Shown here one piece after another: positions 7,251 through 22,646 of a stretch of DNA of 32,564 nt (the first letter of the stretch is position 1; every line of letters begins with the position of its first letter). The stretch spans positions 1-32,564 of the forward strand of contig JAJQDV010000022.1 in assembly GCA_021202015.1 (NCBI GenBank). Direction: 5' to 3'. The notes beneath the pieces are model-generated. The model was not told where the DNA came from. It worked only from the letters and a program-made list of their open reading frames with translations, and ran no database searches. Made by a program: the position numbers and the translations under genes. This DNA comes from Clostridiales bacterium (GTDB lineage: Bacteria; Bacillota; Clostridia; Lachnospirales; Lachnospiraceae).

Positions 7251-7976
7251 TCATACGTTGTGACGGTACTCATAGGGCAGTACCTTCATCCCGTTGTAGG
7301 AGGGGCAGTCCCGCACCCATTCGAGCGATTCTTTTACAATGGCGGTCTGCATGGGGATATTATTCGGTTCGCCCGCGTTGGAACCGATTGGGACATGCGG
7401 CGCCGTGATGCGCGGAGCTCCCTGCTGACGGGCGATCGGCGGAAGCGCGGCGATCACGCAGCAGCTCATTCCTTCGGTCTCGCAGCAGCGGGTGACGATG
7501 GTGGCGGAACGGTGGCAGGTGCCGCAGCCGCCGGTGCAGAGGACAATATCCACGCCCTGCGCCTTCAGCTTCGCGGCGATCTCCGGTCCGGTCTCGCCCG
7601 TGAATTTTTCTACGTTTCCGCCGCCGCCCATAAACGTATAGGTCTCATCGGCCAGGGAGCCGATAAAGCCCTCCTTCACCAGCTCACGCAGTCGGTCGAT
7701 GGGGAACATGGCGTTTACGTCTTTGTTGATGTCCGAGTTGTCAAATCCGCCGTGCGTCACCATCAGCTGATCGGAAGGGGTTGAGAATTCGATCGTGCGA
7801 TAACTGAAATCGCCCGAGGTGTTGAACGGCTCCTGATCTTTTTTGTGAATGCCGCCTGCCGTGATAAAAGCGATCTTACATTCGGACAGGGGCTTTTTTA
7901 ATTCGGTAAAAACCGGCTTCGGTGTGATCGGTACAAATATTTCAGACTGCATGTTTTCCACGGTTGTCAGTTTCAT
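7251..7976 (-). CDS. prdB: D-proline reductase subunit PrdB, cysteine form
   Basis: Predicted catalytic subunit of D-proline reductase, which opens the D-proline ring to 5-aminovalerate with electrons delivered through PrdC. The 241-residue length and the overall pattern fit PrdB, including T-H-G-G-F-D near 74-79 and C-T-G-G-C-G-T-C-H-R-S-A-T at 147-159. Characterised PrdB carries selenocysteine at about position 152 (in-frame TGA). Here the matching residue, Cys151, is a TGC codon at 7526-7524, so this is a cysteine homologue. Cys154 follows two residues later. The start at 7976 has AGGAGGAAA before it. The gene is the last of the minus-strand prd genes, 24 bp after the small protein gene. 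A related reductase of the glycine/proline reductase group acting on another substrate is possible, but the adjacent PrdA and proline racemase favour D-proline. Confidence 0.85.
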   Translation of the reverse strand: MKLTTVENMQSEIFVPITPKPVFTELKKPLSECKIAFITAGGIHKKDQEPFNTSGDFSYRTIEFSTPSDQLMVTHGGFDNSDINKDVNAMFPIDRLRELVKEGFIGSLADETYTFMGGGGNVEKFTGETGPEIAAKLKAQGVDIVLCTGGCGTCHRSATIVTRCCETEGMSCCVIAALPPIARQQGAPRITAPHVPIGSNAGEPNNIPMQTAIVKESLEWVRDCPSYNGMKVLPYEYRHNV

Positions 7977-8000
7977 AAAAGGTTTCCTCCTGTTCGATAA

Positions 8001-8411
8001 TTAAAAAATTTCCTGCATGTGGCTGAGCCAGAATTCCGTCTGCAGGCCCTCTTTCAGAGGGACATCCGTGAAGACAAAGCGCAGCGGAACGGCGACGGTT
8101 CCGATTCCGTCTGAAATCGTCGCCATGATGGCGGTGTCATTGACTTCCGTAATCGTCGCGTAGAGCATGGTGGGCCATGGATCCGGGCGAAACATTCCGC
8201 TCATGTCGACGGCAAACACGTCGTCTGTGACGCGCAGATAACTGAAGAAAAAGGTCAGCTCGCATCCGACGCGGATCGGACGGACGGCAGAGATGCAGGC
8301 CGGGCGGATCGTGATCACACCCAGTCTTCCGTGGATATGTATTTTTACATATTCCTCTGTAATCTCTTTGACCAGTCCGCTCATCCGGACCGGGTTGATT
8401 CTGTATTCCAC
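8001..8411 (-). CDS. Small prd-operon protein, possibly CBO2463/CBO2479-like
   Basis: A 136-residue soluble protein encoded between prdA and prdB, 52 bp after prdA and 24 bp before prdB. It has no signal peptide or membrane segment and no obvious catalytic motif. It is rich in beta-prone Val/Ile/Thr stretches, for example around V-K-I-H-I-H-G-R-L-G-V-I, suggesting a beta-barrel fold. Small proteins annotated as CBO2463/CBO2479-domain are, from memory, found in proline reductase operons of clostridia, and this may be one; I cannot confirm it. The GTG at 8411 is chosen because AGAGGAGG lies 8 nt before it. The ATG two bases earlier on the same strand is out of frame and only 4 nt from that site. 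Confidence 0.65.
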   Translation of the reverse strand: MEYRINPVRMSGLVKEITEEYVKIHIHGRLGVITIRPACISAVRPIRVGCELTFFFSYLRVTDDVFAVDMSGMFRPDPWPTMLYATITEVNDTAIMATISDGIGTVAVPLRFVFTDVPLKEGLQTEFWLSHMQEIF

Positions 8412-8463
8412 ACATGTCGCCTCCTCTGTTTGTTGTGAAGTGAATTGCGGGTTCGGAAACGCG

Positions 8464-10338
8464 TCAGTGCAGCGTGCCGCTGTCGACCAGCGCGGTTTCC
8501 GGGAGACCCAGCAGCCGGTTGTTCGCATTGATCACGTCGTTGTTCCATTTCTTCGGGGCGGGTTTGATCTCCACGCCGGCCATTTTGTTTTTGAGCATCT
8601 GGATGGCGCGGGCGGCGACTTCCTTTGTAACGCAGGAGCATCCCGCGATGTTATCTTCAAAGCCGCCCAGATCCATATTCTCTTCTACCATGGCGTCGGC
8701 ATATCTGTTTCCGACCACAAGCTGTCCCTGATAAGCGCAGAACGATACGCCGACCACCGGAATGCCGCGTTTCCCGGCCTGCCCGATGTGCTGGATGAAA
8801 TCGATATGGTTGTTTCCGAAGCCCTCCGTAGTGATGATGCATCCGTCAATGTCCAGACCTTCGAGCATGCTGCCGAGTCTTTCGGATACCCAGAGCTTTT
8901 CATCGTTGACCTGGGGAGAGCCGATGAAGATTACACCGACGAGATCCAGCTCGGCATCCGCGGCCAGTCCCTCGACCAGCGGCTCGCGGATGTAATGCCG
9001 CGTCATTTCCTTTGTCGCGGGTCCGATACAGGTCAGTGCGTGGATGGAACCGTCCCGCACCTGATTCGGCGTCAGGAGGATCGGCACATTACCGCAGTCC
9101 ACATTTTTCTGGCCGCCCAGGATGCCGCAGGGCTCGGTCGGACAGATCACATTGTCGTGCATTGCGCCCTGTCCCATGATCTCTTTGACGAGAACAACCC
9201 GGGGATTGCCCTTGCGGCGGACGTCCTCGCAGATTTCCTCGCGGACGACTTCGCCGTCGTATTTTTTCAGCTCTTTGCGGATGGCGTCAATGATGGAATC
9301 CTGGCATTTGTGCGCGGCAAACGGTCCGGGCCGGCTCATGCCGGTCATGCGCTCGATCGTAGCATGGCAGCGGATGATGATGTCGTTTTCATCCGCGCAT
9401 CCCGGATGGCCGAAATACATTTTTTCATCCAGATACCCTTCAGAGGAGCCGAATTCGTGGATCTGGACGCCGTCCTCGTCCACTCCGGTCAGCATGAAAA
9501 CAACGCCGTCGGCGACCTTTGTAATTCCCTCGCCCAGCTCGCCTTCAACCTTGGCGGCGATTGGGCAGACGTCCATGATGGTCTCCGTATAGATATGCCG
9601 TTTGTCGGGATAGATCACATCCAGCTGAATATCTTTACATAATGCGTCTTCCTTCAGGGCTTTCTTTGCCAGGGCTTCATCGATATAGATCACCCCGTTT
9701 TCAATAGCGGTTCTGTCTCCGATTACAACATCGGTGATCTTTATATGCTGTTTGATCAGGGTGCGGATGACCTTTTTTGCGCCGGTTTCCGGAACGGCGG
9801 GAAAATCGGTGCCGAAGGATGGTTCCTGCTGGAACGGCTCCAGCGGAATATCCAGGGAGAATCCCTTTAGTTCTGCGGCGCTTTCGATTTCGATATGCAG
9901 GGTCTGCGTTCCGGGGAGCGCCCTGACGATAGAAGCCGGAGATGCGGCTGTACCGGGTGCAGGAGCCGATTCCGACGAAGCGTCACATGTCAGAAATGAT
10001 TTCCCGGATGAGACAGATCCCGCAACAGGGGCGGTTTCCGGAGTTTCATATGTGTGATCCGGTGCCGGGGCGGTTTCCGGAACTACATTTACGCGATTGA
10101 GTACCGATGCGGTAATCTGGGTCAACGCTTCCACATCACAGACCAGCGTAGCGCCGAGCACCTGTTCGATCGTCAGCCCGTCCGGACGCAGCGTCAGAAG
10201 TCCGGCCTCCTCCATATCGTCGAACAGTGTGGGATCCTCCAGATCCGCGGCGCTGATTTTTAAGCCTTTGCTTCTGCGGCAGCAGAAAACAGCGGGATCT
10301 TTTAAATGCTTCTGCAGTGTTTCCGGTGTGATTGACAT
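8464..10338 (-). CDS. prdA: D-proline reductase proprotein PrdA (may be translated from its own start)
   Basis: The 624-residue PrdA module with its own ATG (10338) and AAGGAGG 8 nt upstream, so it could be made separately even though it lies in frame behind PrdC. Its length is that of ordinary PrdA. The N-terminus is M-S-I-T-P-E-T-L-Q; residues about 100-155 form an Ala/Pro/Thr/Ser-rich linker. The processing site is A-L-T-C-I-G-P-A-T-K-E: cleavage before Cys437 (codon 9030-9028) would convert the Cys to the catalytic pyruvoyl group and release a C-terminal chain of about 188 residues, similar to the small subunit of the known enzyme. The proline is bound as a Schiff base to the pyruvoyl group and reduced together with PrdB. 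Confidence 0.85.
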   Translation of the reverse strand: MSITPETLQKHLKDPAVFCCRRSKGLKISAADLEDPTLFDDMEEAGLLTLRPDGLTIEQVLGATLVCDVEALTQITASVLNRVNVVPETAPAPDHTYETPETAPVAGSVSSGKSFLTCDASSESAPAPGTAASPASIVRALPGTQTLHIEIESAAELKGFSLDIPLEPFQQEPSFGTDFPAVPETGAKKVIRTLIKQHIKITDVVIGDRTAIENGVIYIDEALAKKALKEDALCKDIQLDVIYPDKRHIYTETIMDVCPIAAKVEGELGEGITKVADGVVFMLTGVDEDGVQIHEFGSSEGYLDEKMYFGHPGCADENDIIIRCHATIERMTGMSRPGPFAAHKCQDSIIDAIRKELKKYDGEVVREEICEDVRRKGNPRVVLVKEIMGQGAMHDNVICPTEPCGILGGQKNVDCGNVPILLTPNQVRDGSIHALTCIGPATKEMTRHYIREPLVEGLAADAELDLVGVIFIGSPQVNDEKLWVSERLGSMLEGLDIDGCIITTEGFGNNHIDFIQHIGQAGKRGIPVVGVSFCAYQGQLVVGNRYADAMVEENMDLGGFEDNIAGCSCVTKEVAARAIQMLKNKMAGVEIKPAPKKWNNDVINANNRLLGLPETALVDSGTLH

Positions 10339-11661
10339 AAGACATTCCTCCTTAAATATAGCGGTTTTCCGGATTCTCCGGATCAGCGGGTGGTTGACGG
10401 CTCGCAGGGCCTGGTCCGTACAGTGCCAGACCGGGAGCCCGAGCGCCGGCGCGCAGGACATAACGGTGTTGGTACAATCCGTGCAGCTGCTGATCAGGAC
10501 GGCCTGCGCCCCCGCCTTTTTCAAAGCCATCACCTTCTGCACCTGACCGGGGCAGTGTCCCGGGTTTTCACATTTCCTCGTGCCCCGTACCTCCTTTGCC
10601 TGTTTGCAGAATTCAATGCCGGCGACAGAACTTCCCAGACTTTCGGCGATCTGTCGCAGGCGGGCTTCATCGGCGCCGCATGCGCAGACAAGAAGACCGA
10701 TTTTTTCCGGTCCCCGCGGAAAACATTCTGATGCGATGAGGCCGCCGGTCGTCTTGACCAGCGGAGCATCCATGGCGGTGCGCTTGCCGGTGAAGGGTCC
10801 TCCCGCGATCAGTTCCCCGAATTCATCGGCGGCGCCGCCCGCTTTTTGAAACAGGGCTTCGGTGGAGATGCCGAGCGGCTGGTCGGGGAATACCCGAATC
10901 AGATTATCCCGGTGATTCCCGCGAATCTTTCCGGCAATCGTGACGTCCTTGTCGATCAGCGGCTTTCTGAGGACCACGGCTTCATAGATCCGATATACAG
11001 TCTCCGTGTTCAGTACGACGGCGCCTGCGGCGGAGGGGAGTGCTTCCGGCGGCAGCAGCTGACCGAGGGATTCCCGGATGACGGCTCTTTCTTCTCCCAT
11101 TGGATACAGATCCGGAAGAAGGCAAAGCTCGAAGGGTCTGTCTCGGATTTCGCGGTTGAGCGCGGCGCACTCCACAGTATGCTTTTCCTTTATGGCTATG
11201 AGAGCCTGTCCGGCATGAACCAGTGTTCGGACGATTTCCAGTCCCTGCAGGATTTCTGCGGCGTTGCTTCGGATGCGTGCCAGGTTGTGTTCCAGAACGG
11301 GTTCGCACTCTGCGGCGTTTAAGATGACCGTGCCGCCGGGAACGGGAGTTTTCAGTTTCGCGTATGTGGGAAATCCGGCGCCGCCGAGACCGACGATTCC
11401 GGCCCGGCGGATCATGTCCAGAGGTTCGCCCTGTGCCAGCGGAATATAGTTCGCCGGGACGGCTTCTGTGCCTTCCACGGTTATTTCATGCGTATTCACC
11501 TCTGTTACAACCCCCGGGATACTGCTGTAAACGGGTGCGCATAACGCGTCCGGATCCGCAGATGCAAGAAGCTGTCCGCGTACCACGGAGGAACCTTCCG
11601 TGACACAGGGGACAGCTTCTTTGCCGATGTGTTGTCGGAGAGGGAATCGAAAGATGCTCAT
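8464..11661 (-). CDS. prdC-prdA: PrdC-PrdA fused reading frame (RnfC-like electron carrier joined to D-proline reductase proprotein)
   Basis: One uninterrupted frame of 1065 codons joins two proteins that are normally separate. Residues 1-441 are PrdC, an RnfC-like protein thought to bring electrons from NADH to proline reductase. It shows G-L-G-G-A-G-F-P near 91-98, N-A-A-E-C-E-P near 115-121, and a Cys-rich end with S-S-C-T-D-C-T-N-T (Cys393, Cys396). Homologues can carry selenocysteine in this cluster; here the codons are TGC or TGT. Residues 442-1065 are PrdA. At the junction the prdA ribosome site AAGGAGG (10353-10347) is read through in frame as part of F-K-E-E-C-L before the prdA ATG. 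The frame would have ended in a TAA touching that site if one more A stood in the GGAAAACC run upstream. So the fusion may be real, a one-base deletion, or a sequence error. ATG 11661 is chosen for AGAGGTG upstream; GTG 11670 and ATG 11667 are alternatives. Confidence 0.8.
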   Translation of the reverse strand: MSIFRFPLRQHIGKEAVPCVTEGSSVVRGQLLASADPDALCAPVYSSIPGVVTEVNTHEITVEGTEAVPANYIPLAQGEPLDMIRRAGIVGLGGAGFPTYAKLKTPVPGGTVILNAAECEPVLEHNLARIRSNAAEILQGLEIVRTLVHAGQALIAIKEKHTVECAALNREIRDRPFELCLLPDLYPMGEERAVIRESLGQLLPPEALPSAAGAVVLNTETVYRIYEAVVLRKPLIDKDVTIAGKIRGNHRDNLIRVFPDQPLGISTEALFQKAGGAADEFGELIAGGPFTGKRTAMDAPLVKTTGGLIASECFPRGPEKIGLLVCACGADEARLRQIAESLGSSVAGIEFCKQAKEVRGTRKCENPGHCPGQVQKVMALKKAGAQAVLISSCTDCTNTVMSCAPALGLPVWHCTDQALRAVNHPLIRRIRKTAIFKEECLMSITPETLQKHLKDPAVFCCRRSKGLKISAADLEDPTLFDDMEEAGLLTLRPDGLTIEQVLGATLVCDVEALTQITASVLNRVNVVPETAPAPDHTYETPETAPVAGSVSSGKSFLTCDASSESAPAPGTAASPASIVRALPGTQTLHIEIESAAELKGFSLDIPLEPFQQEPSFGTDFPAVPETGAKKVIRTLIKQHIKITDVVIGDRTAIENGVIYIDEALAKKALKEDALCKDIQLDVIYPDKRHIYTETIMDVCPIAAKVEGELGEGITKVADGVVFMLTGVDEDGVQIHEFGSSEGYLDEKMYFGHPGCADENDIIIRCHATIERMTGMSRPGPFAAHKCQDSIIDAIRKELKKYDGEVVREEICEDVRRKGNPRVVLVKEIMGQGAMHDNVICPTEPCGILGGQKNVDCGNVPILLTPNQVRDGSIHALTCIGPATKEMTRHYIREPLVEGLAADAELDLVGVIFIGSPQVNDEKLWVSERLGSMLEGLDIDGCIITTEGFGNNHIDFIQHIGQAGKRGIPVVGVSFCAYQGQLVVGNRYADAMVEENMDLGGFEDNIAGCSCVTKEVAARAIQMLKNKMAGVEIKPAPKKWNNDVINANNRLLGLPETALVDSGTLH
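10339..10353 (-). promoter_or_regulatory. Internal ribosome-binding site of prdA inside the fused frame
   Basis: AAGGAGG at 10353-10347 is followed by 8 nt and the ATG at 10338. It decides the probable independent start of PrdA and marks the old prdC/prdA boundary. Confidence 0.75.
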
Positions 11662-11766
11662 CTTCATCACCTCTATTTTATAACCTTTGTTCCTTCGAAT
11701 CAGGAATCACCGGCTTTTGTTATCTCATAGTATCGCCGCTGATCGATGTTCGGTGAACTTGCCCAC

Positions 11767-11772
11767 AGTATA
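11767..11772 (-). promoter_or_regulatory. Possible -10 box of the prd operon
   Basis: TATACT on the minus strand (11772-11767), about 105 bp before the prdC start. No good -35 box lies 16-18 bp upstream (TTCCCT at best), which would fit an activator-dependent promoter. Confidence 0.3.
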
Positions 11773-11877
11773 CAGGATAAAACGGAAAAAGGGAAATTTC
11801 TATTCTCCATGGAAGGCATAACAGATTGTTATGGATAAAGCTGAGAATTTTGGTAGAGAATGTGACCGGAAACCGTT

Positions 11878-11985
11878 AAGGTATACCTTCCAGGCACTCG
11901 TGAACTCATGCGCTAACGCGCGGGGTGCGCTATGCGCAACAAGGTATACCTTCCAGGCACCTCTTAATTCATGCGCTTCGCGCGG
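11878..11985 (-). repeat. 63-bp-spaced direct repeat at the 3' end of the second LysR gene
   Basis: AAGGTATACCTTCCAGGCAC begins at 11878 and again at 11941. Each copy continues with a related stretch containing ATGCGCT and CGCGCG. Copy 2 includes the stop codon and last codons of the minus-strand LysR gene (11964). Copy 1 is a diverged duplicate beyond it. Confidence 0.85.
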
Positions 11986-12869
11986 AAATAACAAGGTAGC
12001 AGTTCCGGCAGGGTTTCCTGCGTGACATGGATAAAGCGGGAGGCGGCGGGTGTGAGCCCCTGTTTGGAAATATACGCGATTCCGAGTTCGCGGGAGAAGA
12101 ACGGATCCAGCGGAAGGACCCGCACATGTTCAGCGGTTCCCCGGATTACCAGATCGGGAAGAATGCTGATGCCGAGGTCATTGGCGACCATGGTTACAAT
12201 GGCGAGGTCGTCCTTCGAAGAAAAATGCGTGTTCGGATCAATACCGGTCTGGCTCAGGACATGGTGGATATCATAATCTGTGCCCTCTGCGGAAAGAATG
12301 AAGGGCTGGTTCTCGATTTCCGAGAGCGGGAAACCCGATTCGGAACAGAACGGATAATTTTCCGGGAGAATGGCCATCAGCGGATCCTCGCAGAGAGAGA
12401 GCCATTCCAGCCCGCAGGTGCGTCTCCGACTCAACAGACCCAGATCGGCCCGGCTGTTTCTGATCCAGGAGACAATGTCATCCGTGCCGCCTTCCAGCAG
12501 TTCAATCTCAATGCCCGGATACTGTTTCTGAAAAGAGGACAGAATGGACGGAAGCCAGTTGCGGGAGATGCTGGCGAAACAGGCGATCGTCAGATGACCG
12601 TTTTCCAGACTGTGAAAAGACGCGACCATCTGCTCGATTTTTTCATTGTCGTCAAGGAGCTGGCGGACCAGGGGGAGGAGGGTCCTGCCGTTCGAAGTGA
12701 GCACAACACCCTTTTTTGTGCGCAGGAAGAGCGGGAAGCCGAGTTCGTTTTCCAGCGTTTTCAGTACGCGGCTCACGCCCGGCTGTGTATAACCCATACG
12801 AAGACCTGATTTTGTGAAATTTTTTGTTTCCGCTACATCTGCAAATAATGCGTATTTGTTGATCTCCAT
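11964..12869 (-). CDS. LysR-family transcriptional regulator (between prd operon and transporter operon)
   Basis: Predicted DNA-binding regulator of 301 residues, with a winged helix-turn-helix at about 3-62 (G-Y-T-Q-P-G-V-S-R-V-L-K-T-L-E) and an effector domain from about 90 on (L-T-I-A-C-F-A-S-I near 94). It lies between the prdC start and the divergent amino-acid transporter operon, the usual place for a LysR regulator of both. The start at 12869 has GAGAGGAG upstream. A TATAAT lies at 13012-13007, but with no well-spaced -35 box. Between that box and the start codon is a strong hairpin followed by TTTT on this strand, which could attenuate expression. The last codons sit in a direct repeat that was duplicated downstream. 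The effector is not known; proline or 5-aminovalerate would fit the context. Confidence 0.85.
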   Translation of the reverse strand: MEINKYALFADVAETKNFTKSGLRMGYTQPGVSRVLKTLENELGFPLFLRTKKGVVLTSNGRTLLPLVRQLLDDNEKIEQMVASFHSLENGHLTIACFASISRNWLPSILSSFQKQYPGIEIELLEGGTDDIVSWIRNSRADLGLLSRRRTCGLEWLSLCEDPLMAILPENYPFCSESGFPLSEIENQPFILSAEGTDYDIHHVLSQTGIDPNTHFSSKDDLAIVTMVANDLGISILPDLVIRGTAEHVRVLPLDPFFSRELGIAYISKQGLTPAASRFIHVTQETLPELLPCYFRAKRMN

Positions 12870-12940
12870 AGATATTCTCCTCTCCGGTGCTTTCCTGGTA
12901 TAGAGTCCGGTTAATTCGAGGACGCCACACCAGATGAAAA

Positions 12941-13432: not shown

Positions 13433-14329
13433 ATGAAAAAGAAAAAAATGATCTCATTATTTATGGCGTTCGGCATGGCGGCGACACTGCTTGCCGGCTG
13501 CGGCAGCAGCACGGACAGCAGTGGGGAAACGGAAGAGACCGCGTCCGCCGCGGAGGAGTCTTCTGAGTCTGAGAGCGCCGCTGCGGAGGAAACCGCGGAC
13601 GCGCCTTCCTGCCAGGGCGCACTGGAAGGGGTGACCCTTGTTGTCGGTACTTCCGGAACCTATGCGCCGTTTTCTTATTTCGCTGAGGATGGAGTGACAT
13701 TGCAGGGATTTGATATCGATTTCCTGTATGCGCTTCAGGATATCCTCGGATTTGAGATCGCGGACGATACCATTCAGGATATGGATTACAGCCCGCTCGG
13801 AACATCCATCAGCCAGGGTACGCTGGACATCGCGGCCGCGGCGCTCTGCGCAACGGATGAGCGAAAGGAATCCATGAATTTTACCGATATTTATTATGAC
13901 GCCGGCATTGTCGTGGTCGTCGGGGTTGATAACGAGACCATAACGAGTGTGGACGATCTGACGGGCGGCGAGTACACCGTTGCCATTCAGAGCGGGACGA
14001 TCGCTTATGAATACGCGGTCGCGAATCTCCCGGAGGACTGTCTGCAGACCTATGATTCTCAGGCATTGGCATACAAGGCGGTAGAGGACGGGCAGGCGGA
14101 CGCGACGATCTACGATCAGCCGGGTACCGCGTATTCCATTAAGACGGGCGAGATCAACTTAAAGATCGTCGGCGACGAGTTCTATACCGGGCAGGCGCCG
14201 TACGCACTGGCTCTGTCGTTTGATATCTGCGAGGAATATCCGGAAATCGTGGATGATTTCAATGAGGCCATCGCTTATCTCGAGGAAACCGGAAAAATGG
14301 ATGAGATCAAAGCGGCCTGGTGTGATTAA
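13433..14329 (+). CDS. Amino-acid ABC transporter, substrate-binding lipoprotein
   Basis: Extracytoplasmic binding protein of 298 residues in the family 3 (polar amino acid) group. The signal peptide ends in a lipobox L-L-A-G-C with Cys23, followed by a Ser/Glu/Ala-rich linker to about residue 60. The mature domain begins L-V-V-G-T-S-G-T-Y-A-P-F-S-Y and contains G-F-D-I-D, a hallmark of this group, and a D-I-A-A-A-A stretch. The start at 13433 follows AAAAAGGAGGAAATC. It is the first of three transporter genes. Because proline reductase, proline racemase and a regulator surround the operon, proline is a reasonable substrate guess, but the sequence does not show specificity. Confidence 0.85.
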   Translation: MKKKKMISLFMAFGMAATLLAGCGSSTDSSGETEETASAAEESSESESAAAEETADAPSCQGALEGVTLVVGTSGTYAPFSYFAEDGVTLQGFDIDFLYALQDILGFEIADDTIQDMDYSPLGTSISQGTLDIAAAALCATDERKESMNFTDIYYDAGIVVVVGVDNETITSVDDLTGGEYTVAIQSGTIAYEYAVANLPEDCLQTYDSQALAYKAVEDGQADATIYDQPGTAYSIKTGEINLKIVGDEFYTGQAPYALALSFDICEEYPEIVDDFNEAIAYLEETGKMDEIKAAWCD

Positions 14330-14407: not shown

Positions 14408-15073
14408 ATGAGTGCCGAATTTTTAGCTGAAATCATACCGATGCTGTTTCGCGGGCTGAAGGTCACCATGCAGATCGCATTGACGGGTATCCTTCTGGGC
14501 TTTATCCTCGGCGCTGTCAGCGGCTATGCGCTGCAGTGCCGGAATAAGATCGCGAGGGCAATCGCCAATGTTTACATATGGGTTATCCGCGGGACGCCGC
14601 TTGTTGTGCAGGCATTGTATGTGTATTTTGCGCTTCCGGCTCTGGTGACGCTGATTACGGGGAACCGTTTTGTGATCGACAGCGTGGTCGCCGGCATTAT
14701 CGTCATCACGCTGAACGCGGGAGCGTTTATTTCCGCGATCGTCAAGGGCGCGCTGGAAGGTGTGGACATCGGACAGAGGGAGGCGGGACACGCGCTGGGG
14801 ATGACCCGGTTTCAGGTGCTTTTGCATGTGGTGATTCCCCCGGCGTTTAAATCCATGATTCCCGGTCTGTTTAACCAGTTTATCATCTCTGTAAAAGATA
14901 CGGCGCTGCTGTCCATGATCTCGGTTGCGGATATCACCCGCCAGACGCAGAACTATGTGGCGCGTACATACAATACCCTGCCCGCATATACGGCCTGCGC
15001 CCTGTTTTATCTCATTCTGCTGTCCATTCTGATGGTGCTGCAGAAGGTAGTGGAAAACCGTATCAACAAATAG
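14408..15073 (+). CDS. Amino-acid ABC transporter permease (HisM/GlnP type)
   Basis: Membrane subunit of 221 residues with about five hydrophobic segments. It has the EAA loop that contacts the ATPase, E-A-G-H-A-L-G-M-T near 121-129 and ending V-V-I-P. The N-terminal region [13 protein letters not shown] is typical for polar amino-acid permeases. Only one permease gene is present, so the channel should be a homodimer. It follows the binding protein by 78 bp, and GCAGGAGGGAGGA precedes the ATG. Confidence 0.88.
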
Positions 15074-15137: not shown

Positions 15138-15899
15138 ATGAGTGAAGCATTACTGAAGATCAGTCATCTGGTGAAGTCCTTCGGTGATCTGGAGGTTCTT
15201 CGGGATATTAATATGGAAATCGGGCGGGGCGAGGTCGTCTGTATCATCGGTCCGTCCGGATCCGGAAAAAGTACGCTTTTGCGCTGCATCAATCAGCTCG
15301 AAACGCCCACCGGAGGGGAGATTTTCTATAAAGGGGAAAATCTGTGTGATCAAAACGCGGACATCCGCAGATTCTGTGAAGAAGTGGGTATGGTGTTCCA
15401 GAAATTCAATCTGTTTCCCCTGAAAAACGTGCTGGATAATGTCACGCTGGCGCCGATTCTGACAAAGCATAAGAACCGGAAGGACGCGGAAGTGTTTGCA
15501 ATGGAACTGCTGCGGAAGGTAGGACTGGAAAGCAAGGCCTCGACGAAACCGAATATGCTGTCCGGGGGACAGCAGCAGAGGGTGGCCATCGCGCGGGCGC
15601 TTGCGATGGAGCCGGAGGCTCTGTTGTTCGATGAGCCGACCTCGGCGCTGGATCCGGAGCTTGTCGGAGAGGTCTTAAACGTCATGCGCGATCTGGCAAA
15701 TGACGGGATGACAATGCTCATTGTGACCCACGAGATGGCGTTTGCGAGAGATGTGGCGGATCGGGTGATCTTCATGGACGAGGGCTATATCGTGGAACAG
15801 GGCGTTCCGGAAGCGGTGCTGGGAAATCCGAAGGAGGAACGGACGAAGGCGTTCCTGTCCCGTTTCCTGGAGTCGCAGGGAAGTGATAGTGTTGTGTAG
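15138..15899 (+). CDS. Amino-acid ABC transporter ATPase (GlnQ type)
   Basis: Cytoplasmic ATPase subunit of 253 residues with all expected motifs: Walker [10 protein letters not shown] at 38-46, Q-loop Gln88 in V-F-Q-K-F-N-L-F-P, signature L-S-G-G-Q-Q-Q at 141-147, Walker B L-L-F-D-E-P at 162-167 and the switch His198 in V-T-H-E-M. The size and the F-N-L-F-P stretch are those of polar amino-acid importers. It is third in the operon, 64 bp after the permease, with AGGAGGGCGG before the ATG. Confidence 0.9.
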
Positions 15900-15973: not shown

Positions 15974-16588
15974 ATGGAAAAATTCGTGATCACGATCACA
16001 AGGGAATTCGGCAGTCTGGGGCGCCCCATTGCGAAGGAACTGTCACAGATCCTGAAGGTGCAGTATTACGACCGCGACATTGTGGAGGCGACGGCCAGGC
16101 AGCTGAATCTGCCGGTTTCCGTTCTGAGCAGGAAGGAAGAGAAGCGGTCGGGATTTTTTGACATGCTTTTCCCGCTCGGGATCGAGGATGCGGCGCAGCA
16201 GAGCCGGATCTTCAGCGCACAGTCGCAGATCATTCATTCCCTGGCGGAAAAGGAATCCTGCATTATCGTCGGCCGATGCGCGGATTACATCCTGCGCGAC
16301 GAACCGAACGCGCTTCACGTATACATCTATGCGCCTTACGCGGACCGCCTGGCGAACTGTGTCGGCCCGCTCGGCATGAAGAAGAATGAGGCAAAAAAGA
16401 TGATTGCGGAAGTGGATAAGGCGAGAACCGCCTATCATAAATATTTTTCGCATTATGTGCCGGGAGACCCGGAGCACACGCATATCATGATCAACAGCGC
16501 GGTGCTGGAGGTAGAGGGAACAGCGCAGGCGCTTGCGGCCATTGCCGGCATCCGGTTTGGGATACAGGAAGAGCGGGAGCAGCCGTAA
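15974..16588 (+). CDS. Cytidylate kinase-like family protein
   Basis: A 204-residue protein of the cytidylate-kinase-like family, whose members resemble nucleotide kinases but have no agreed substrate. The N-terminal I-T-I-T-R-E-F-G-S-L-G-R-P-I-A stretch (about 6-20) is the family's version of the phosphate-binding loop. I-I-V-G-R-C-A-D-Y near 95-103 is another typical motif. No membrane segment is seen. It lies between the ABC transporter and the proline racemase gene on the same strand; why it belongs there is unclear. AGAGGGTGA precedes the ATG. The last codons and stop are inside the first unit of a 37-bp tandem repeat. Confidence 0.75.
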   Translation: MEKFVITITREFGSLGRPIAKELSQILKVQYYDRDIVEATARQLNLPVSVLSRKEEKRSGFFDMLFPLGIEDAAQQSRIFSAQSQIIHSLAEKESCIIVGRCADYILRDEPNALHVYIYAPYADRLANCVGPLGMKKNEAKKMIAEVDKARTAYHKYFSHYVPGDPEHTHIMINSAVLEVEGTAQALAAIAGIRFGIQEEREQP

Positions 16589-16706: not shown

Positions 16707-16723
16707 ATTCAGGGAGAACGCAG

Positions 16724-17755
16724 ATGAACAGATGTCCGACGGTGAGGGAATACGCCTATCATTTAAAAACCATTGACTCCCATACGATGGGGGAATCGAC
16801 AAGGATCGTCTACGACGGTTTCCCGAAGCTTCGGGGAAAGACCATGATGGAGAAGAAAAACAATCTGGTGGAGTGTTATGATTTCCTGCGGACAGCGCTG
16901 ATCCTCGAGCCCAGGGGACATCGCGACATGTTCGGGGCGGTTCTGACTGAGCCGGTCCACAGAGAAGCGGATTACGGCGTGATCTTTATGGATAACGGCG
17001 GCTGCCTGAATATGTGCGGACACGGGAGTATCGGAACGGCGTCCATGCTGGTGGAGACGGGTATGGTTGAGGTGACGGAACCGTACACGGAGGTCGTACT
17101 GGACTCGCCCTCCGGCATCATCCGCGCGAAGGTGCATGTGGTAAACGGGGAGGCGGTGGAGGTCAGCATTCTGAACGTGCCGGCGTTTCTCTACAAACAG
17201 GATCTTCAGGTGGAGATAAAACCGTGGGGCGTGATCCCGTTTGACATTTCGTTCGGCGGTTCGTTTTTCGCGATTGTCGACGCGGGCCGGATCGGGCTCC
17301 CGCTGGAGATGAGCCACATCCGGGAGATCACGGATCTCGGCATGGCGATCCTCAGGAAGGCGAACGCGGCCTATCCGGTGAGGCATCCGTATCTTGACAT
17401 AACCACGGTCGATCTGGTAGAGTTTTATTCGCAGGCCGACCTGGCGCAGGCGGATCTGAAAAACTGCGTGATTTTCGGAGAAGCGCAGGCGGATCGTTCC
17501 CCCTGCGGGACGGGAACAAGCGCAAAAATGGCGGATCTCTATACCAGGGGAGAGCTGGGCCTGCATGAAGAGTTTGTCTATGAGAGCATTACGGGCTCCC
17601 TCTTTAAGGGGGAGGTCGTGCGGGAGCTTGAGATTGATGGAAAAAAAGCGATCATCCCGCAGATTACCGGAAGCGCTTATATGACGGGGTTCAACGAGTG
17701 GATTCTGGATGATCAGGATCCTCTCCGGTTCGGATTTCTCCTGAGAGAGGCATGA
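16724..17755 (+). CDS. prdF: Proline racemase family protein
   Basis: Predicted cytoplasmic racemase of 343 residues that would convert L-proline to the D-proline needed by proline reductase. Both catalytic cysteines of true racemases or epimerases are present: Cys98 in N-M-C-G-H-G-S-I-G and Cys261 in D-R-S-P-C-G-T-G-T. The D-I-S-F-G-G-S-F-F-A stretch near 174-183 is also typical. Having both cysteines speaks against the related 3-hydroxyproline dehydratases. 4-Hydroxyproline epimerase remains possible from sequence alone, but the nearby prdA and prdB favour proline. The ATG at 16724 follows CAGGGAGAAC. Its stop overlaps the next gene's start (ATGA at 17752-17755). Confidence 0.88.
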   Translation: MNRCPTVREYAYHLKTIDSHTMGESTRIVYDGFPKLRGKTMMEKKNNLVECYDFLRTALILEPRGHRDMFGAVLTEPVHREADYGVIFMDNGGCLNMCGHGSIGTASMLVETGMVEVTEPYTEVVLDSPSGIIRAKVHVVNGEAVEVSILNVPAFLYKQDLQVEIKPWGVIPFDISFGGSFFAIVDAGRIGLPLEMSHIREITDLGMAILRKANAAYPVRHPYLDITTVDLVEFYSQADLAQADLKNCVIFGEAQADRSPCGTGTSAKMADLYTRGELGLHEEFVYESITGSLFKGEVVRELEIDGKKAIIPQITGSAYMTGFNEWILDDQDPLRFGFLLREA

Positions 17756-18666
17756 TTCTTATGAAAAAAACAGCTTCGCTGCTGATTCTGGCGGCGGGTA
17801 TCCTGTGGGGGAGCATGGGATTGTTTGTCCGGAAACTGGATCTGTACGGACTGACTTCCATTGACATTGTGGCTTTGCGGGCGATGGTAACATCTGTTTT
17901 CCTGTTTTTGTTTCTGCTGATTTTTCGCAGAAAGCTGCTACGGATCCGGCTCAGGGATCTCTGGTGTTTTCTGGGTACCGGGATTGCGAGTATCGCGTTT
18001 TTCAACTTCTGTTATTTTAAAGCGATCACGCTGACCTCGCTGTCTGCTGCGGCGGTGCTTTTGTACACCGCGCCGGCGATCGTGATGGTGCTTTCCCGGT
18101 TTCTGTTCGGGGAAAGGTTCACAAAAAGAAAACTGTTGGCACTGTTTATGACGTTTTTCGGCTGCGTCCTCGTTACCGGCGTACTGACGGAGCCGGGGAA
18201 TCTGTCCGCCGGGGGAATCCTCGCGGGGCTGGGCGCGGGGCTCGGATATGCGCTGTATTCCGTTTTTTCGCGTTACGCGCTGGAGAGGGGATATCATTCC
18301 CTGACGATCACATTTTATACATTTCTGATCGCTGCGGTCGGGACTGTCTTTATGGCGGACATCGGAAAGGTAGGAAGGGCGGCGTCCGACAGCGCATCCA
18401 TGCTGTTGTTCTGTATCGCGTTCGGCGTGCTCTGTACGGTTGTGCCGTATCTGACTTATACTCTGGGGCTTCAATTTGTGGAAAACAGCCGGGCGTCCAT
18501 CATTGCTTCTGTTGAGCCGGTCACGGCCACGCTGCTGGGGCTGGCTGTTTTCGGGGAAAAACTCTCCGCAGCCGGCGCGGCGGGGGTTGTGCTGGTGCTT
18601 GCGGCGCTTGTTCTGTGCCGGGAGCCGAAAAAGAAACGGAAGGCAAATGTGGGAACCGAAAAATAA
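17752..18666 (+). CDS. EamA/DMT-family transporter 1
   Basis: Inner-membrane protein of 304 residues with about ten hydrophobic segments in two EamA repeats (about 5-145 and 155-290). The first starts L-L-I-L-A-A-G-I-L-W-G-S-M-G. The end is basic (K-K-K-R-K). DMT carriers export amino acids or other metabolites, or import them; direction cannot be told. The start overlaps the proline racemase stop by 4 bp, suggesting coupled translation; a second ATG at 17761 is an alternative. The position within the proline genes suggests moving proline, 5-aminovalerate or a related product (inference). The 3' end is in a direct repeat shared with the leader of the next gene. Confidence 0.82.
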   Translation: MILMKKTASLLILAAGILWGSMGLFVRKLDLYGLTSIDIVALRAMVTSVFLFLFLLIFRRKLLRIRLRDLWCFLGTGIASIAFFNFCYFKAITLTSLSAAAVLLYTAPAIVMVLSRFLFGERFTKRKLLALFMTFFGCVLVTGVLTEPGNLSAGGILAGLGAGLGYALYSVFSRYALERGYHSLTITFYTFLIAAVGTVFMADIGKVGRAASDSASMLLFCIAFGVLCTVVPYLTYTLGLQFVENSRASIIASVEPVTATLLGLAVFGEKLSAAGAAGVVLVLAALVLCREPKKKRKANVGTEK

Positions 18667-18777
18667 GGGACGGAAGACGGACCGCGTATGAGGGAATCGA
18701 AATATAAAGAACGGATGGCAGATGGTGAATGGGAAAATTGAAAAATAAGGGACGGAAGGCGGACGGCGAATGAAGAA
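18658..18777 (+). repeat. 38-bp direct repeat flanking the gap between two DMT genes
   Basis: GAAAAATAAGGGACGGAAG begins at 18658 and again at 18740, and similarity continues for about 38 bp each time. The first copy holds the end of DMT gene 1; the second holds the start region of DMT gene 2. Spacing is 82 bp. Confidence 0.85.
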
Positions 18778-19645
18778 ACTGATTATTATTCTCGGCGTGG
18801 CGGGGACTTCTCTCTCCGCGATTCTGGTGCGGTATTCAACGGCTTCCGCGACGGTTCTGGTCGTTTACCGGATGCTGTTTTCCGTCCTGCTGCTGCTTCC
18901 GGGAATCCTCGGCGCACGCCGGAAAGAATTAAAACAGATCGGGCGCGGGGATATCCTCCGCTGCCTGCTCAGCGGTTTTTTCCTCGGAATGCATTTTGTC
19001 TGTTATTTTCTGAGCCTTCAGAATACGAGCATCTCCTCCTCGGTTGTGCTCGTGGATACGGAAGTGTTTTTTGTGGCTCTGGGCGGTCTGCTGTTTTTAC
19101 ATGAAAGAGTCAGCCGGCCGGTGTGGATCAGCATGATCCTGACATTCGCGGGCAGTATCATTGTTTCCGCGGGCGACATGGAAAGCGGACAGCTGGCGGG
19201 CGATCTGCTGGCCCTGTGCGGCGCGGCCTGCTCCGCTGTCTATACGCTCATCGGGCGGAAATGCAGGGAACATATGTCCACAACAGTCTATACGTGGATC
19301 GTCTATGCCGCCGCGGGAGCCGTGGCGATCGCCGCGTCCCTGACGGCCGGGGAAGGCATTGCCTGCGACGGCAGGAACCTTCTGGTGGCGCTGGGACTGG
19401 CGGTGTTCTGCACGTTGCTCGGACACAGCATTTTCAGCTGGGGGCTGAAATTCGAGAAGGTGTCTTTTATCTCCACGGTGAAGCTTCTGGAGCCGGTGTT
19501 CGCCTCATTGCTCGGCATTTTGCTGCTGAAGGAGATACCGGCGGGATCGTCAGTGGTCGGTGGGATTATTATTATCATCGGGATCGCGCTCTGTATACGA
19601 TTTAATCAACAGGGCGGGGAGGAACTCAGCGGACGAAAGCAATGA
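18770..19645 (+). CDS. EamA/DMT-family transporter 2
   Basis: Inner-membrane protein of 291 residues with about ten hydrophobic segments in two EamA repeats. It is not a close copy of the first DMT protein, having diverged clearly at the start (I-I-L-G-V-A-G-T-S-L-S-A-I-L-V-R-Y). Features typical of the family include F-L-H-E-R-V near the end of the first half and L-E-P-V-F-A-S-L-L-G near 244-253. It follows gene 1 by about 100 bp and precedes the aminotransferase gene. The substrate is unknown. A weak purine-rich stretch (GGACGGAAGG) serves as ribosome site. Its last codons (S-G-R-K-Q-stop) lie in the first unit of a 53-bp repeat. Confidence 0.82.
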   Translation: MKKLIIILGVAGTSLSAILVRYSTASATVLVVYRMLFSVLLLLPGILGARRKELKQIGRGDILRCLLSGFFLGMHFVCYFLSLQNTSISSSVVLVDTEVFFVALGGLLFLHERVSRPVWISMILTFAGSIIVSAGDMESGQLAGDLLALCGAACSAVYTLIGRKCREHMSTTVYTWIVYAAAGAVAIAASLTAGEGIACDGRNLLVALGLAVFCTLLGHSIFSWGLKFEKVSFISTVKLLEPVFASLLGILLLKEIPAGSSVVGGIIIIIGIALCIRFNQQGGEELSGRKQ

Positions 19646-19740
19646 AAAAGAAGAGTACGTCCGCAGGCCGGGAAGAGTCGAACGGACGAAAAGAACAAAA
19701 AGAAGAATTTATTCGTTTGTCCGGAGAAATTTTGCGGACA
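19630..19740 (+). repeat. 53-bp repeat, two units, upstream of the aminotransferase
   Basis: Units begin with CGGACGAAA at 19630 and 19683, and a stub CGGACA at 19735. In the first unit CGGACG and CGTCCG arms can form a hairpin. The two units resemble those at 21282 and 21335 in the second array, in the same order. Confidence 0.85.
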
Positions 19741-19750
19741 ATAAAAAACA

Positions 19751-19771
19751 AGGTGATATCTGACACTACCT
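19751..19771 (+). promoter_or_regulatory. Possible operator upstream of the aminotransferase
   Basis: TGACACTACCT at 19761-19771 is identical to the left arm of the palindrome before the dehydrogenase gene. An imperfect match to the right arm (AAGGTGATATC) stands just before it. The shared 11-mer, 23 bp ahead of the start codon, suggests a common regulator. Confidence 0.35.
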
Positions 19772-19793
19772 ATTTTATAAAAGGAGGCAAACC

Positions 19794-20999
19794 ATGAAAC
19801 TGGTGGATACGGGTTTTACGGCACAGGAGATCCGGGACAAGGTAAATACTTACATGATTGAGACCTATGAGCGCTTTGATTTTCTGGCGGAGAGCGCGAA
19901 GGATCAGTATATGTATGACGAGGAGGGAAACCCTTATCTGGATTTTTATGCGGGAATCGCGGTCAATTCCGTCGGAAACTGCAATGAGAAAGTCGTGGAG
20001 GCGGTACAGGAACAGGCGGCCACGCTGATGCAGACCTTTAATTATCCGTATACGATTCCGCAGGCGCTTCTCGCGGAGAAAATCTGCACGTCGATCGGCA
20101 TGGACAAAATATTTTTCCAGAATTCCGGGACGGAAGCAAACGAAGCCATGATCAAGCTGGCACGAAAATACGGGGTAGAGCATTACGGGCCGCATAAATA
20201 TCACATCGTCACCGCATCCATGGGCTTCCACGGAAGAACTTTCGGTTCCATGTCCGCGACCGGGCAGCCGGACAACGGCTGTCAGATCGGTTTCGGCCCG
20301 ATGACGGATGGATTCTCCTATGCGGAATTCAATCATCTGGAAGCTTTCAAAAGCGCCTGTACGGAAAACACCATTGCGATCATGGTGGAGCCCGTGCAGG
20401 GGGAGGGCGGCGTCCATCCCGCGACCATGGAATTTATGAAGGGACTCCGCGAATTCTGTGACGAGAAAGGGATGCTTCTGCTTCTGGATGAGGTTCAGAC
20501 CGGCTGGTGCAGGACGGGTGCAATCATGTCCTATATGAACTACGGCGTAAAGCCGGATATTGTCTCCATGGCGAAGGCTTTGGGCGGCGGGATGCCCATC
20601 GGCGCGGTCTGCGCGACTGCCGACGTCGCACGGGCATTTGACGCAGGTTCCCACGGCAGCACGTTCGGCGGACATCCGGTCTGCTGCGCGGCCGCCCTGG
20701 CGGCGGTCGGGGAACTGCTGGAGAGGGATCTTGCCGGAAACGCCAGAGAGATAGGCGCTTATTTTACGGAAGAGCTGAAAAAGCTTCCGCATGTAAAAGA
20801 GGTACGTGGGCAGGGCCTTCTGGTCGGCGTGGAATTCGATGATACCGTTTCGGCGCCGAAGGTCAAGCACGCCTGTATCGATCGGCATCTGCTCGTCACC
20901 GCAATCGGCGATCACATTATTCGCATGGTTCCGCCGCTGACTGTCACCCGGGAGGACTGCGACCGGGCATATGAGATCCTGCGGGAGGCGGCAGGGTAA
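19794..20999 (+). CDS. Class III aminotransferase, candidate 5-aminovalerate aminotransferase
   Basis: PLP-dependent class III (omega-) aminotransferase of 401 residues, closest in feel to acetylornithine and 4-aminobutyrate transaminases. Seen motifs: N-S-G-T-E-A-N-E-A at 110-118, H-G-R-T-F-G near 146-151, L-D-E-V-Q-T-G at 231-237 (Asp232 for the pyridine nitrogen) and the PLP lysine Lys261 in S-M-A-K-A-L-G-G-G. These enzymes take amino groups from the far end of linear amino acids. Next to genes making 5-aminovalerate, the simplest proposal is 5-aminovalerate plus 2-oxoglutarate to glutarate semialdehyde plus glutamate. Acetylornithine or GABA remain alternatives; no arg genes are nearby. 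AAAAGGAGG precedes the ATG. Confidence 0.8.
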
Positions 21000-21083
21000 A
21001 ACGGTAAAAAACCCCAACAGATAATCAGGACTGCGCGGTTCTGTGAGAGGCGGCGATTCCACCAGACGTAAAGACGAGTCCAT

Positions 21084-21110
21084 TGCGACCGGGCATATGA
21101 GGTTCTGCGG
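21084..21110 (+). repeat. Short copy of the aminotransferase 3' end
   Basis: TGCGACCGGGCATATGAG followed by a T-C-T-G-C-G-G-G-like stretch repeats the sequence near the end of the aminotransferase gene (from about 20958), about 126 bp further on and outside any gene. Confidence 0.75.
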
Positions 21111-21122
21111 GTGTCGAAGTTG

Positions 21123-21467
21123 CGGACAAAAACGGCGAAAAAGGAAAAATCGTCCGTCAGGCAGGTAATATCGAGCGGACGAAAACAGCGAAAAAGAAGA
21201 ATGTGTCCGTGTGCCGGGAGGGCGAGAACGGACGAAAGTGATGAAAAAGAAGAAATCGTCCGTGTACCGGGAGGGCGAGAATAGACGAAAATGACGAAAA
21301 AGGAGAGTGCGTCTGTAGGCCAGGAAGAGCCGAACGGAAGAAAAGAACAAAAAAGAAGAATCTGTCCGTTAGCCGTGGAAGCATCTACGGACGAAACAGG
21401 AAAAGCCAGATAGAAAGTCCGTATGCTGGAAGAAATCCAACTGACGAAAACAGAAAAAAACAGAAAT
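21123..21467 (+). repeat. 53-bp tandem repeat array between aminotransferase and dehydrogenase
   Basis: Units begin at 21123, 21176, 21229, 21282, 21335, 21388 and 21441, exactly 53 bp apart, with starts resembling CGGACGAAA and an inner A-rich GAAAAAGAAGAA part. Units are degenerate. CGGACG and CGTCCG-like arms recur in many. No spacers, no open frame I believe. This fills most of the 510-bp gap 21000-21509. Confidence 0.9.
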
Positions 21468-21469
21468 TT

Positions 21470-21495
21470 GACACTACCTGCAACAAGGTAGTGTC
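21470..21495 (+). promoter_or_regulatory. Perfect palindrome upstream of the alcohol dehydrogenase
   Basis: GACACTACCT (21470-21479) and AGGTAGTGTC (21486-21495) are perfect inverted repeats around a 6-bp loop, ending 14 bp before the start codon and touching the ribosome site. It could be an operator or an RNA hairpin that controls translation. The left arm recurs before the aminotransferase. Confidence 0.6.
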
Positions 21496-21509
21496 GGCGG
21501 GAGGGAAAT

Positions 21510-22646
21510 ATGAAAAAAATGATGTTGACAGGACAGGCGCTTATCACCGGAGAAAATGCGCTGGACTACCTGGGAACAATCTCATATGAAAAAGCGGTGA
21601 TCGTAACCGGCGGCTCGTCCATGGAAAGGACGGGCGTCCTGCGGCGCATCCGGGAAATCATGAAAAAGGATCACAGTCAGATGGCGGTGTATTCCGGCAT
21701 CAGCAAAAACCCGTGCAAAGCCCAGGTGCTGGCGGGATGCGAATTCCTGAGGCAGGAGAAACCGGACGTCGTCCTGGCTGTGGGAGGCGGCTCCGCAATC
21801 GACGCGGCAAAAATGATGGTGCTTTTCTATGATCATCCGGAGCTTGATTTTGATAATGTGTTTTGCCTGCCGCTGGATGATAAGAAGCTGAAGACGACGC
21901 TGATCGCGGTTCCGTCCACCTCGGGTACCGGATCGGAGGTGACGACTTCAAGCGTGATCACACTGGAGGACAAAGGTTTTAAAATGGCAGTGCGCGCCGC
22001 GTGCCTGCGGCCCGCGATTGCGATTCTGGACGGAGAGCTGCCGATGACGCTGCCCGCATCCATTGCGGCAGAGACGGGGATGGATGCGCTGACGCACGCG
22101 CTGGAGGCCTATGTGAATAAAAACGGAAATGAATTTACGGACGCGCTCGCAAAAGAAGCCGCGGTGGGAATCCTTTCCTGGCTTCCGGTTTCCGTCCGGG
22201 AAGGATCGAAAGAGGCCAGGACAAAGATGCATCATTACCAGTGCATGGCGGGTATGGCGTTTGCCAACAGCGGCTTGGGGATGGTGCATGGGGTATCGCA
22301 CGCGTTCGGCGGAAAATATAATATGGCACATGGGCTGGCCAATGCGGTGATTCTGCCATATTCCATGGATTACAATAAAGAAGACCCGGAGGTCAGCGCG
22401 AAGTACGATGAGTTGTCCCGTGTGATCGGAAAGGATCTCATCACAACGGTCAGAGAACTGCAGGCGGAGCTTGGAATCCCGTCCTGCATGAGAGATGCCG
22501 GGATAGCGGAAGCGGATTTTCGCGCGGATTTCGATCATCTTCTGAAATACTCCATGCAGGGATCCACAACGGTGAATCCTATAGAAGTATCTGCGGAGGA
22601 TATGAGGGAATTTCTGAAACGCGTGTATTACGGGAGTAATCCGTAA
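21510..22646 (+). CDS. Iron-type alcohol dehydrogenase, candidate 5-hydroxyvalerate dehydrogenase
   Basis: Group III (iron-dependent) alcohol dehydrogenase of 378 residues, expected to reduce an aldehyde with NAD(P)H. Seen motifs: G-G-G-S-A-I-D at 92-98 for the cofactor, P-S-T-S-G-T-G-S-E at 135-143 and the metal ligands Asp192, His196, His260 and His274 in D-A-L-T-H and V-H-G-V-S-H...A-H-G. Next to the aminotransferase it could reduce glutarate semialdehyde to 5-hydroxyvalerate, as in 5-aminovalerate-fermenting clostridia. 4-Hydroxybutyrate or butanol dehydrogenase activity is an alternative that sequence cannot exclude. GGGAGGGAAAT precedes the ATG. It is the last gene of the plus-strand run. 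Confidence 0.82.
   Translation: MKKMMLTGQALITGENALDYLGTISYEKAVIVTGGSSMERTGVLRRIREIMKKDHSQMAVYSGISKNPCKAQVLAGCEFLRQEKPDVVLAVGGGSAIDAAKMMVLFYDHPELDFDNVFCLPLDDKKLKTTLIAVPSTSGTGSEVTTSSVITLEDKGFKMAVRAACLRPAIAILDGELPMTLPASIAAETGMDALTHALEAYVNKNGNEFTDALAKEAAVGILSWLPVSVREGSKEARTKMHHYQCMAGMAFANSGLGMVHGVSHAFGGKYNMAHGLANAVILPYSMDYNKEDPEVSAKYDELSRVIGKDLITTVRELQAELGIPSCMRDAGIAEADFRADFDHLLKYSMQGSTTVNPIEVSAEDMREFLKRVYYGSNP

Follow-up and report, generated by a model that had tools for sequence, protein, structure and literature searches.

What happens to 5-aminovalerate, the product of proline reduction, in a bacterium where the proline reductase (prd) genes share a locus with an aminotransferase and an alcohol dehydrogenase? 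The question is raised by contig JAJQDV010000022.1 of a Clostridiales bacterium of the Lachnospiraceae, a gut-type anaerobe (assembly GCA_021202015.1), the whole 32,564 nucleotides of which are called here the window (contig C18 of genome G000, which comprises 2.21 Mb in 73 contigs and is 91% complete). In our judgement the locus at 7251-22646 is, on balance, probably a proline-fermentation cluster that works without selenium and has a branch consuming its own product, in which a class III aminotransferase (AT) and an iron-type alcohol dehydrogenase (ADH) would convert 5-aminovalerate to 5-hydroxyvalerate. All the genes named in a preliminary description of the sequence (prd, racemase, importer, two carriers, aminotransferase and iron-type ADH) were found at their positions, while it left out a CBO2463-domain protein, a LysR regulator and a cytidylate-kinase-like protein. 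Its interpretation of the pathway could be retained in part: genome comparison lends good support to AT and a moderate degree of support to an ADH partner. It was the extended electron sink, the onward formation of valerate and a recurring orthologue of the window ADH that found no support. We infer the substrates of both enzymes from their sequences and gene neighbourhoods. The argument is based on the following features:

7251-7976, minus strand: PrdB, D-proline reductase subunit, Cys form (TIGR04483, 447.4 bits, cut-off 300)
8464-11670, minus strand: PrdC and PrdA in one open frame of 1068 amino acids
8464-10338, minus strand: PrdA proprotein part (TIGR04480, 846.5 bits, cut-off 700)
10339-11670, minus strand: PrdC electron-transfer protein (TIGR04481, 574.4 bits, cut-off 490)
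16724-17755, plus strand: predicted proline racemase, PrdF (PF05544, 380 bits)
19794-20999, plus strand: AT, predicted 5-aminovalerate:2-oxoglutarate aminotransferase (TIGR00707, 421.9 bits)
21000-21509, plus strand: gap of 510 bp between AT and ADH, with repeats, a copy of the AT end and a hairpin
21510-22646, plus strand: ADH, predicted glutarate-semialdehyde reductase (5-hydroxyvalerate dehydrogenase; PF00465/PF25137)

AT is not the biosynthetic ArgD of the organism, since a separate argD is situated in argJ-argB-argD on contig C51, all three genes being over the cut-offs of their models, and the product of this argD is 39% identical to AT, and the third class III aminotransferase match of the genome is hemL (608 bits, cut-off 527). 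In a tree of 62 rows the 56 AT rows formed one clade (99/98), separate from the ArgD and GabT-like rows; the AT of L047, which is split over two frames, and L115-L133, which overlap later and longer fetched loci, were omitted from it. The members of this clade have a near-invariant Asp29 where the TYxRFP motif of both ArgDs compared has Pro, and near-invariant Phe82, Tyr84, Pro85 and Thr87 where the ArgD loop is SNLxxN. These replacements are no more than consistent with a changed substrate. Because 5-aminovalerate is ornithine minus its alpha-amino group, an ArgD-like pocket would fit its chain length.

The linkage of AT with prd genes was followed in 80 named prd loci, fetched by PrdA and searched for AT and its neighbours. 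AT (64-84% identity) was linked in 17 of them, from taxa which include Lachnospiraceae, Clostridium, Anaerocolumna, Sporolactobacillus, Liquorilactobacillus and one Bifidobacterium, B. aquikefiri. From the 63 loci without linked AT, 50 genomes were rechecked and the other 13 left out; 23 of the 50 had AT elsewhere or past the fetched stretch, and in four of these (L224, L226, L227, L228) a longer fetch located it near PrdF. In a sample of 299 genomes of the family, where AT was counted at an E value of 1e-150 or better and PrdA by its cut-off, 31 genomes had PrdA, 46 had AT (47 before G222, with 45% identity and E 3e-102, was removed) and 16 had both. AT was thus present in 16 of the 31 PrdA-positive genomes and in 30 of the 268 others (p=4.6e-7, or 1.6e-6 without our own genome). 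These counts and those from the named loci are not independent because some genomes are common to both (e.g. G150/L045, G038/L064). Within the family AT and prd are clearly associated; a class sample of 391 genomes, scored by PrdB and AT, shows a weak association. On the AT tree the prd-linked label needed seven changes, at least four of them forced, therefore the linkage changed repeatedly. It should be mentioned that the window, L138 and L164 are marked as lacking AT in our context lists, yet tblastn found AT there; L230, L233, L235 and L239 bear the same mark, and for these four the context lists alone were looked at.

A sister group of AT, ten rows (L142-L147, L149-L152) without ADH, was observed as well; alaS adjoins in four of the ten, and eight of its nine family genomes have PrdA over cut-off, the PrdB of those eight having an in-frame stop.

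Concerning the partner enzyme, 31 of the 64 AT rows (63 places, as L087 and L141 are one contig) have an iron-type ADH no more than 3 kb away, compared with 7 of 495 other open reading frames of at least 300 amino acids in AT-less named prd loci, a control drawn from prd loci and not from matched genomes. Prd genes, AT and iron-type ADH stand together in four relatives, in the order PrdF-AT-ADH in L165, PrdF-ADH-AT in L078 and L189, and PrdB, a TetR gene, then AT-ADH in L085. PrdF, AT and ADH are close together in three more, namely L226 and the Pseudobutyrivibrio loci L227 and L228, the latter two with the order PrdF-ProC-AT-ADH. The fullest relative is L226, on the same contig as L034 and past its end, where the end of PrdF is followed by an EamA carrier, glutamate dehydrogenase, HypD activase, HypD, ProC, AT and ADH (scores against cut-offs: HypD, NF043068, 1476.7/1100; activase 431/425; ProC 273/197). 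A glutamate dehydrogenase relative is also found beside prd in L038 and L039, the same two genomes as L227 and L228, and at the edge of L165, and HypD or its relatives occur in the prd loci L035, L076, L084, L085, L086, L087, L090, L091, L093 and L094 (HypD models were run for L035, L084 and L085). In L043 and L076 PrdF is followed by an iron-type ADH with no AT there, and both genomes have AT elsewhere. The stretch 7251-22646 itself showed no recognisable HypD, ProC or glutamate dehydrogenase. Where AT is remote from prd, a common arrangement runs from a PucR-type regulator through an ATP-binding cassette (ABC) importer and a cytidylate-kinase-like gene to AT and ADH, as in L135, L158, L163, L166 and L169 (the PucR model was run on L163).

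Some other arrangements around AT were seen. In L159 (3493-6153) an APC-type amino-acid permease and an iron-type ADH share one frame beside a member of the AT clade, and similar permease-ADH frames of about 870-960 amino acids are present in L138, L154, L157, L162, L167, L237 and L238 (models were run for L159 only). In L186 a GabT-like aminotransferase-ADH pair and a second pair, whose aminotransferase is of the AT clade, share one neighbourhood with a relative of cupin-helix-turn-helix regulators and a permease.

On this basis the following route may be proposed. According to the family membership of the proteins, the importer would bring in L-proline, the racemase would convert it to D-proline, and PrdA and PrdB would reduce D-proline to 5-aminovalerate with electrons delivered via PrdC. 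AT would then form glutarate semialdehyde and glutamate from 5-aminovalerate and 2-oxoglutarate, and the iron-type ADH would reduce the semialdehyde with NADH to 5-hydroxyvalerate, probably the endpoint of the branch. A glutamate dehydrogenase, such as the one beside prd in some relatives, could regenerate 2-oxoglutarate from glutamate and NAD with release of ammonium and NADH; AT, ADH and glutamate dehydrogenase side by side would be just the set required for deaminating 5-aminovalerate to 5-hydroxyvalerate. Export of 5-aminovalerate or 5-hydroxyvalerate may be the task of the EamA carriers. Since one NADH would be used by ADH and one made by glutamate dehydrogenase, the sum is redox-neutral, and what the cell would gain from the branch is the release of nitrogen from proline, not a bigger electron sink. 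For this stoichiometric reason the extended electron sink of the preliminary description was rejected; by the same stoichiometry the sink would be widened only as far as glutamate nitrogen enters biosynthesis.

The onward conversion to valerate found no support at the locus. CoA-transferases and acyl-CoA dehydrogenases were sought in the organism's own genome and none was found on the contig of the window. The genome has no PF02550 match; its PF01144 pair on contig C41 is nearest to acetate/3-oxoacid CoA-transferase models, and its one acyl-CoA dehydrogenase, on C56, is nearest to acryloyl-CoA reductase (510 vs 640). A candidate valerate operon in L081, where a CoA ligase stands behind AT, was dismissed, the next genes being a transpeptidase, a LacI regulator and sugar genes.

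Several observations weigh against a dedicated 5-aminovalerate branch. AT passes the ArgD subfamily cut-off (TIGR00707, 410) and retains the Tyr of TYxRF and the Arg of FHGRT of ArgD. (GABA, i.e. 4-aminobutyrate, transaminases have Ile at this Tyr position; the GabT-like row of our residue comparison does not include it.) Thirty of the 46 AT carriers of the family pass no PrdA cut-off, and most AT carriers of both samples are without prd over cut-off; in the class sample AT occurs in 3 of 22 PrdB-positive genomes and 5 of 369 others, with p=0.007, which becomes p=0.049 without our own genome. Among 21 prd-linked AT rows just five have an ADH within 3 kb, and the sister group has it in none of its ten rows, three of which end less than 600 bases from AT. 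The window ADH itself is set 510 bp from AT, past the repeats and the hairpin. The iron-type ADHs near AT form at least two groups, about 30-35% alike, and the window ADH is in neither, having 27-34% identity to the full-length ADHs near AT or prd (48% over 64 residues to an ADH fragment in L047). Homologues of it at 48-65% identity were found in 7 of the 299 genomes of the family, and all seven lack AT and PrdA. Finally, the glutamate dehydrogenase models in L226 remain below their equivalog cut-offs (482/620 and 465/750). The suggested co-occurrence of the AT-ADH pair with prd thus holds for AT and for iron-type ADH as a type and fails for the close homologues of the window ADH: the type recurs near AT, the orthologue of the window enzyme does not.

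An unlikely alternative is that AT does use 5-aminovalerate and the ADH is, in this genome, an unrelated unit, e.g. a reductase of succinate semialdehyde or another aldehyde. The different ADH group and the repeats and hairpin of the gap would suit it, as would the neighbourhoods of the window-ADH homologues, where a different class III aminotransferase is present in the same run in five of eight (L207, L209-L212; the eight belong to seven genomes, G277 being represented twice), directly adjacent in four, with 618 bits for PRK08117 in L210, for which alone the model was run. The same neighbourhoods can be read in the other direction, since there too the ADH is paired with a class III aminotransferase, therefore the window ADH plausibly reduces omega-aldehydes; in addition its strand and place are the same as in the relatives. 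Somewhat less credence is due to the idea that AT and ADH are a general pair for deaminating GABA or mixed omega-amino acids, with 5-aminovalerate as a side substrate at most. The majority of the AT-ADH pairs found are indeed situated at a distance from prd, accompanied in many cases by an ABC or APC importer, and a GabT-like second aminotransferase is near in L154, L157, L159, L167, L173, L186 and L187 (models: L159 only). However, AT is far under the cut-off for GABA transaminase (TIGR00700, 223 vs 506.65), it would be redundant for GABA wherever a GabT-like enzyme is present, and its linkage with prd is repeated.

AT might also act before the reductase instead of after it, as an ornithine delta-aminotransferase supplying pyrroline-5-carboxylate, and hence proline. 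This is improbable: the sequence of AT is indeed like ArgD and ornithine aminotransferase, and ProC is immediately 5' of it in L226, L227 and L228, but its score is under the ornithine aminotransferase cut-off (TIGR01885, 293 vs 378.4), ProC is already accounted for by HypD in L226, and neither the iron-type ADH partner nor the AT-ADH operons away from prd would be explained. The notion of AT as an additional acetylornithine aminotransferase that serves arginine synthesis and is placed here by chance can practically be dismissed: the TIGR00707 score speaks for it, against which stand the dedicated argD in its arg operon, the separate AT clade with near-invariant residues of its own and the recurring prd linkage.

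In the proline reductase half of the proposed cluster, PrdA, PrdB and PrdC are all over the cut-offs of their models. The Cys151 codon of PrdB, within TGGCGTC, stands at the selenocysteine (UxxC) position, and no selenocysteine is encoded there. Among 107 loci rows, of which the window is one, PrdB has Cys at this position in 78 and an in-frame stop in 29 (103 distinct PrdB sequences, 28 with the stop), and SelA had no match in the 91% complete genome. The missing selenocysteine excludes just the label selenoenzyme; Cys homologues of PrdB are already known, from which the window PrdB differs in nothing essential, and as they were tallied as early as 2005 (PMC1088965, in a table), the selenocysteine/Cys difference was dropped as a novelty. 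Two PrdB genes over cut-off were noticed in G387, G416, G463, G484, G503, G562 and G584, one copy without an internal stop and the other with an in-frame TGA.

PrdA contains HALTCIGP, which we take to be the site of the pyruvoyl-forming Cys. The joint between PrdC and PrdA is without a stop and the PrdC frame reads on into PrdA, whereas 77 of 78 other loci with PrdC and PrdA in this order have a stop that closes the PrdC frame ahead of PrdA; the one exception, L092, has the two genes in different frames. PrdA retains its own ribosome-binding site, aaggagg, ahead of the ATG at 10338, and for this reason a true fusion protein is not claimed; the simplest reading of the sequence would be a lost stop with PrdA still translated separately, and a read-through product is possible.

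The remaining features of the locus are these:

8001-8528, minus strand: CBO2463/CBO2479-domain protein (NF041553, 105.8 bits, cut-off 50)
11964-12869, minus strand: LysR regulator, divergent from the importer
13433-14329, plus strand: amino-acid ABC importer, binding protein (PF00497, 86.5 bits)
14408-15073, plus strand: amino-acid ABC importer, permease (55-80% homologues in many prd loci)
15138-15899, plus strand: amino-acid ABC importer, ATPase (52-78% homologues in many prd loci)
15974-16588, plus strand: cytidylate-kinase-like protein (PF13189, 159 bits)
17752-18666, plus strand: EamA/DMT carrier 1 (PF00892)
18770-19645, plus strand: EamA/DMT carrier 2 (PF00892)

The CBO2463-domain protein has a tblastn match, in part of the cases partial, in 55 of the 80 named prd loci; its mechanically assigned start overlaps PrdA, and the true one is probably situated further downstream. 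Homologues of the LysR regulator are 47-65% identical in many Cys-type prd loci and weaker in other prd loci. In operons of both the prd and the AT-ADH kind, the gene for the cytidylate-kinase-like protein is often a neighbour of amino-acid ABC importer genes. The racemase does not reach the cut-off of 556 of its best NCBIfam model, PRK13969 (469 bits), and it contains the motifs MCGHG and DRSPCGTGT, the Cys residues of which are presumably the catalytic ones of proline racemase. A homologue of carrier 1 is immediately 3' of PrdF in L034, L044, L045 and L224, and this carrier is a candidate exporter of 5-aminovalerate or 5-hydroxyvalerate; carrier 2 has a 53-55% homologue in L044, after carrier 1. 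The idea that EamA carrier and AT represent mutually exclusive fates of 5-aminovalerate was refuted, since L224 and L226 each contain the two. Elsewhere in the window a lysine riboswitch (RF00168, 113 bits) was detected at 24371-24549, ahead of a dapA-like gene.

As for the ADH and the gap before it, no NCBIfam equivalog cut-off was reached by the enzyme. The gap holds four degenerate 53-bp repeats (21125-21396), an 88% second copy of 33 nucleotides of the 3' end of AT (21084-21116) and a hairpin of 12 pairs (21470-21495, z -4.99) directly 5' of the ribosome-binding site of ADH. The intergenic repeat with its 53-bp period is dispersed, with 12 matches in the genome including the query itself; it is found on contigs C11, C50, C69, C46, C49, C30 and C62, and also at 19628-19707 between carrier 2 and AT, hence on both flanks of AT. 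The motif TGACACTACCT occurs shortly 5' of the starts of AT (19761-19771) and ADH (21469-21479), before ADH as part of the hairpin. It was rejected as a common operator of the two genes because it also precedes genes in L246 (~1578) and L175 (~2225), which seem unrelated to AT and ADH.

Compared with known systems, the window shares PrdA, PrdB, PrdC and a proline racemase family protein with the Stickland D-proline reductase cluster prdABCDEF of Clostridium sticklandii and C. difficile, but its PrdB has Cys in place of selenocysteine, a LysR gene is present with no PrdR-type gene recognised, and the locus further includes an ABC importer and EamA carriers of its own, with the aminotransferase and ADH behind them. 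The prd enzymes are described as making 5-aminovalerate in portions of two papers that name no later step there (PMC6615313, PMC13188914). As far as 5-hydroxyvalerate, the predicted first steps of the branch agree with the ones described (PMC8473912) for the way in which Clostridium viride (formerly in C. aminovalericum) ferments 5-aminovalerate. The same source assigns the two halves to two organisms, with proline converted to 5-aminovalerate by C. sporogenes and 5-aminovalerate via 5-hydroxyvalerate to valerate by C. viride; here, in contrast, a single genome carries both halves, with no step toward valerate encoded at the locus. From the ArgD subfamily, whose TIGR00707 cut-off it exceeds and to which its nearest solved relative by sequence belongs (T. 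maritima ArgD, 2ord), AT differs in its position outside an arg operon, its distinct clade and the separate ArgD of the genome. In the openly accessible literature, at the level of titles and abstract openings and with subscription papers and preprints outside the scope, no prd operon with an AT-ADH branch was found. The parts are known, the combination is new.

A broader proposal can be put forward only tentatively: in several bacterial lineages the selenium-independent prd operon may have been extended into a self-contained route for the imino acids typical of collagen, trans-4-hydroxyproline and proline. These would pass via 5-aminovalerate and end as 5-hydroxyvalerate and ammonium, the enzymes being glutamate dehydrogenase, HypD, ProC, a 5-aminovalerate aminotransferase from a dedicated AT clade and interchangeable iron-type ADHs, and prd-less relatives could scavenge the 5-aminovalerate excreted by others by means of AT-ADH and an importer. 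5-Aminovalerate serves as a sign of proline fermentation, and if such a branch is true for many gut and rumen bacteria, its levels would understate the use of proline. Furthermore, 5-hydroxyvalerate would gain candidate genes, an aminotransferase clade for a known clostridial reaction would become testable, and the benefit of the branch for these bacteria would be nitrogen release rather than electron disposal.

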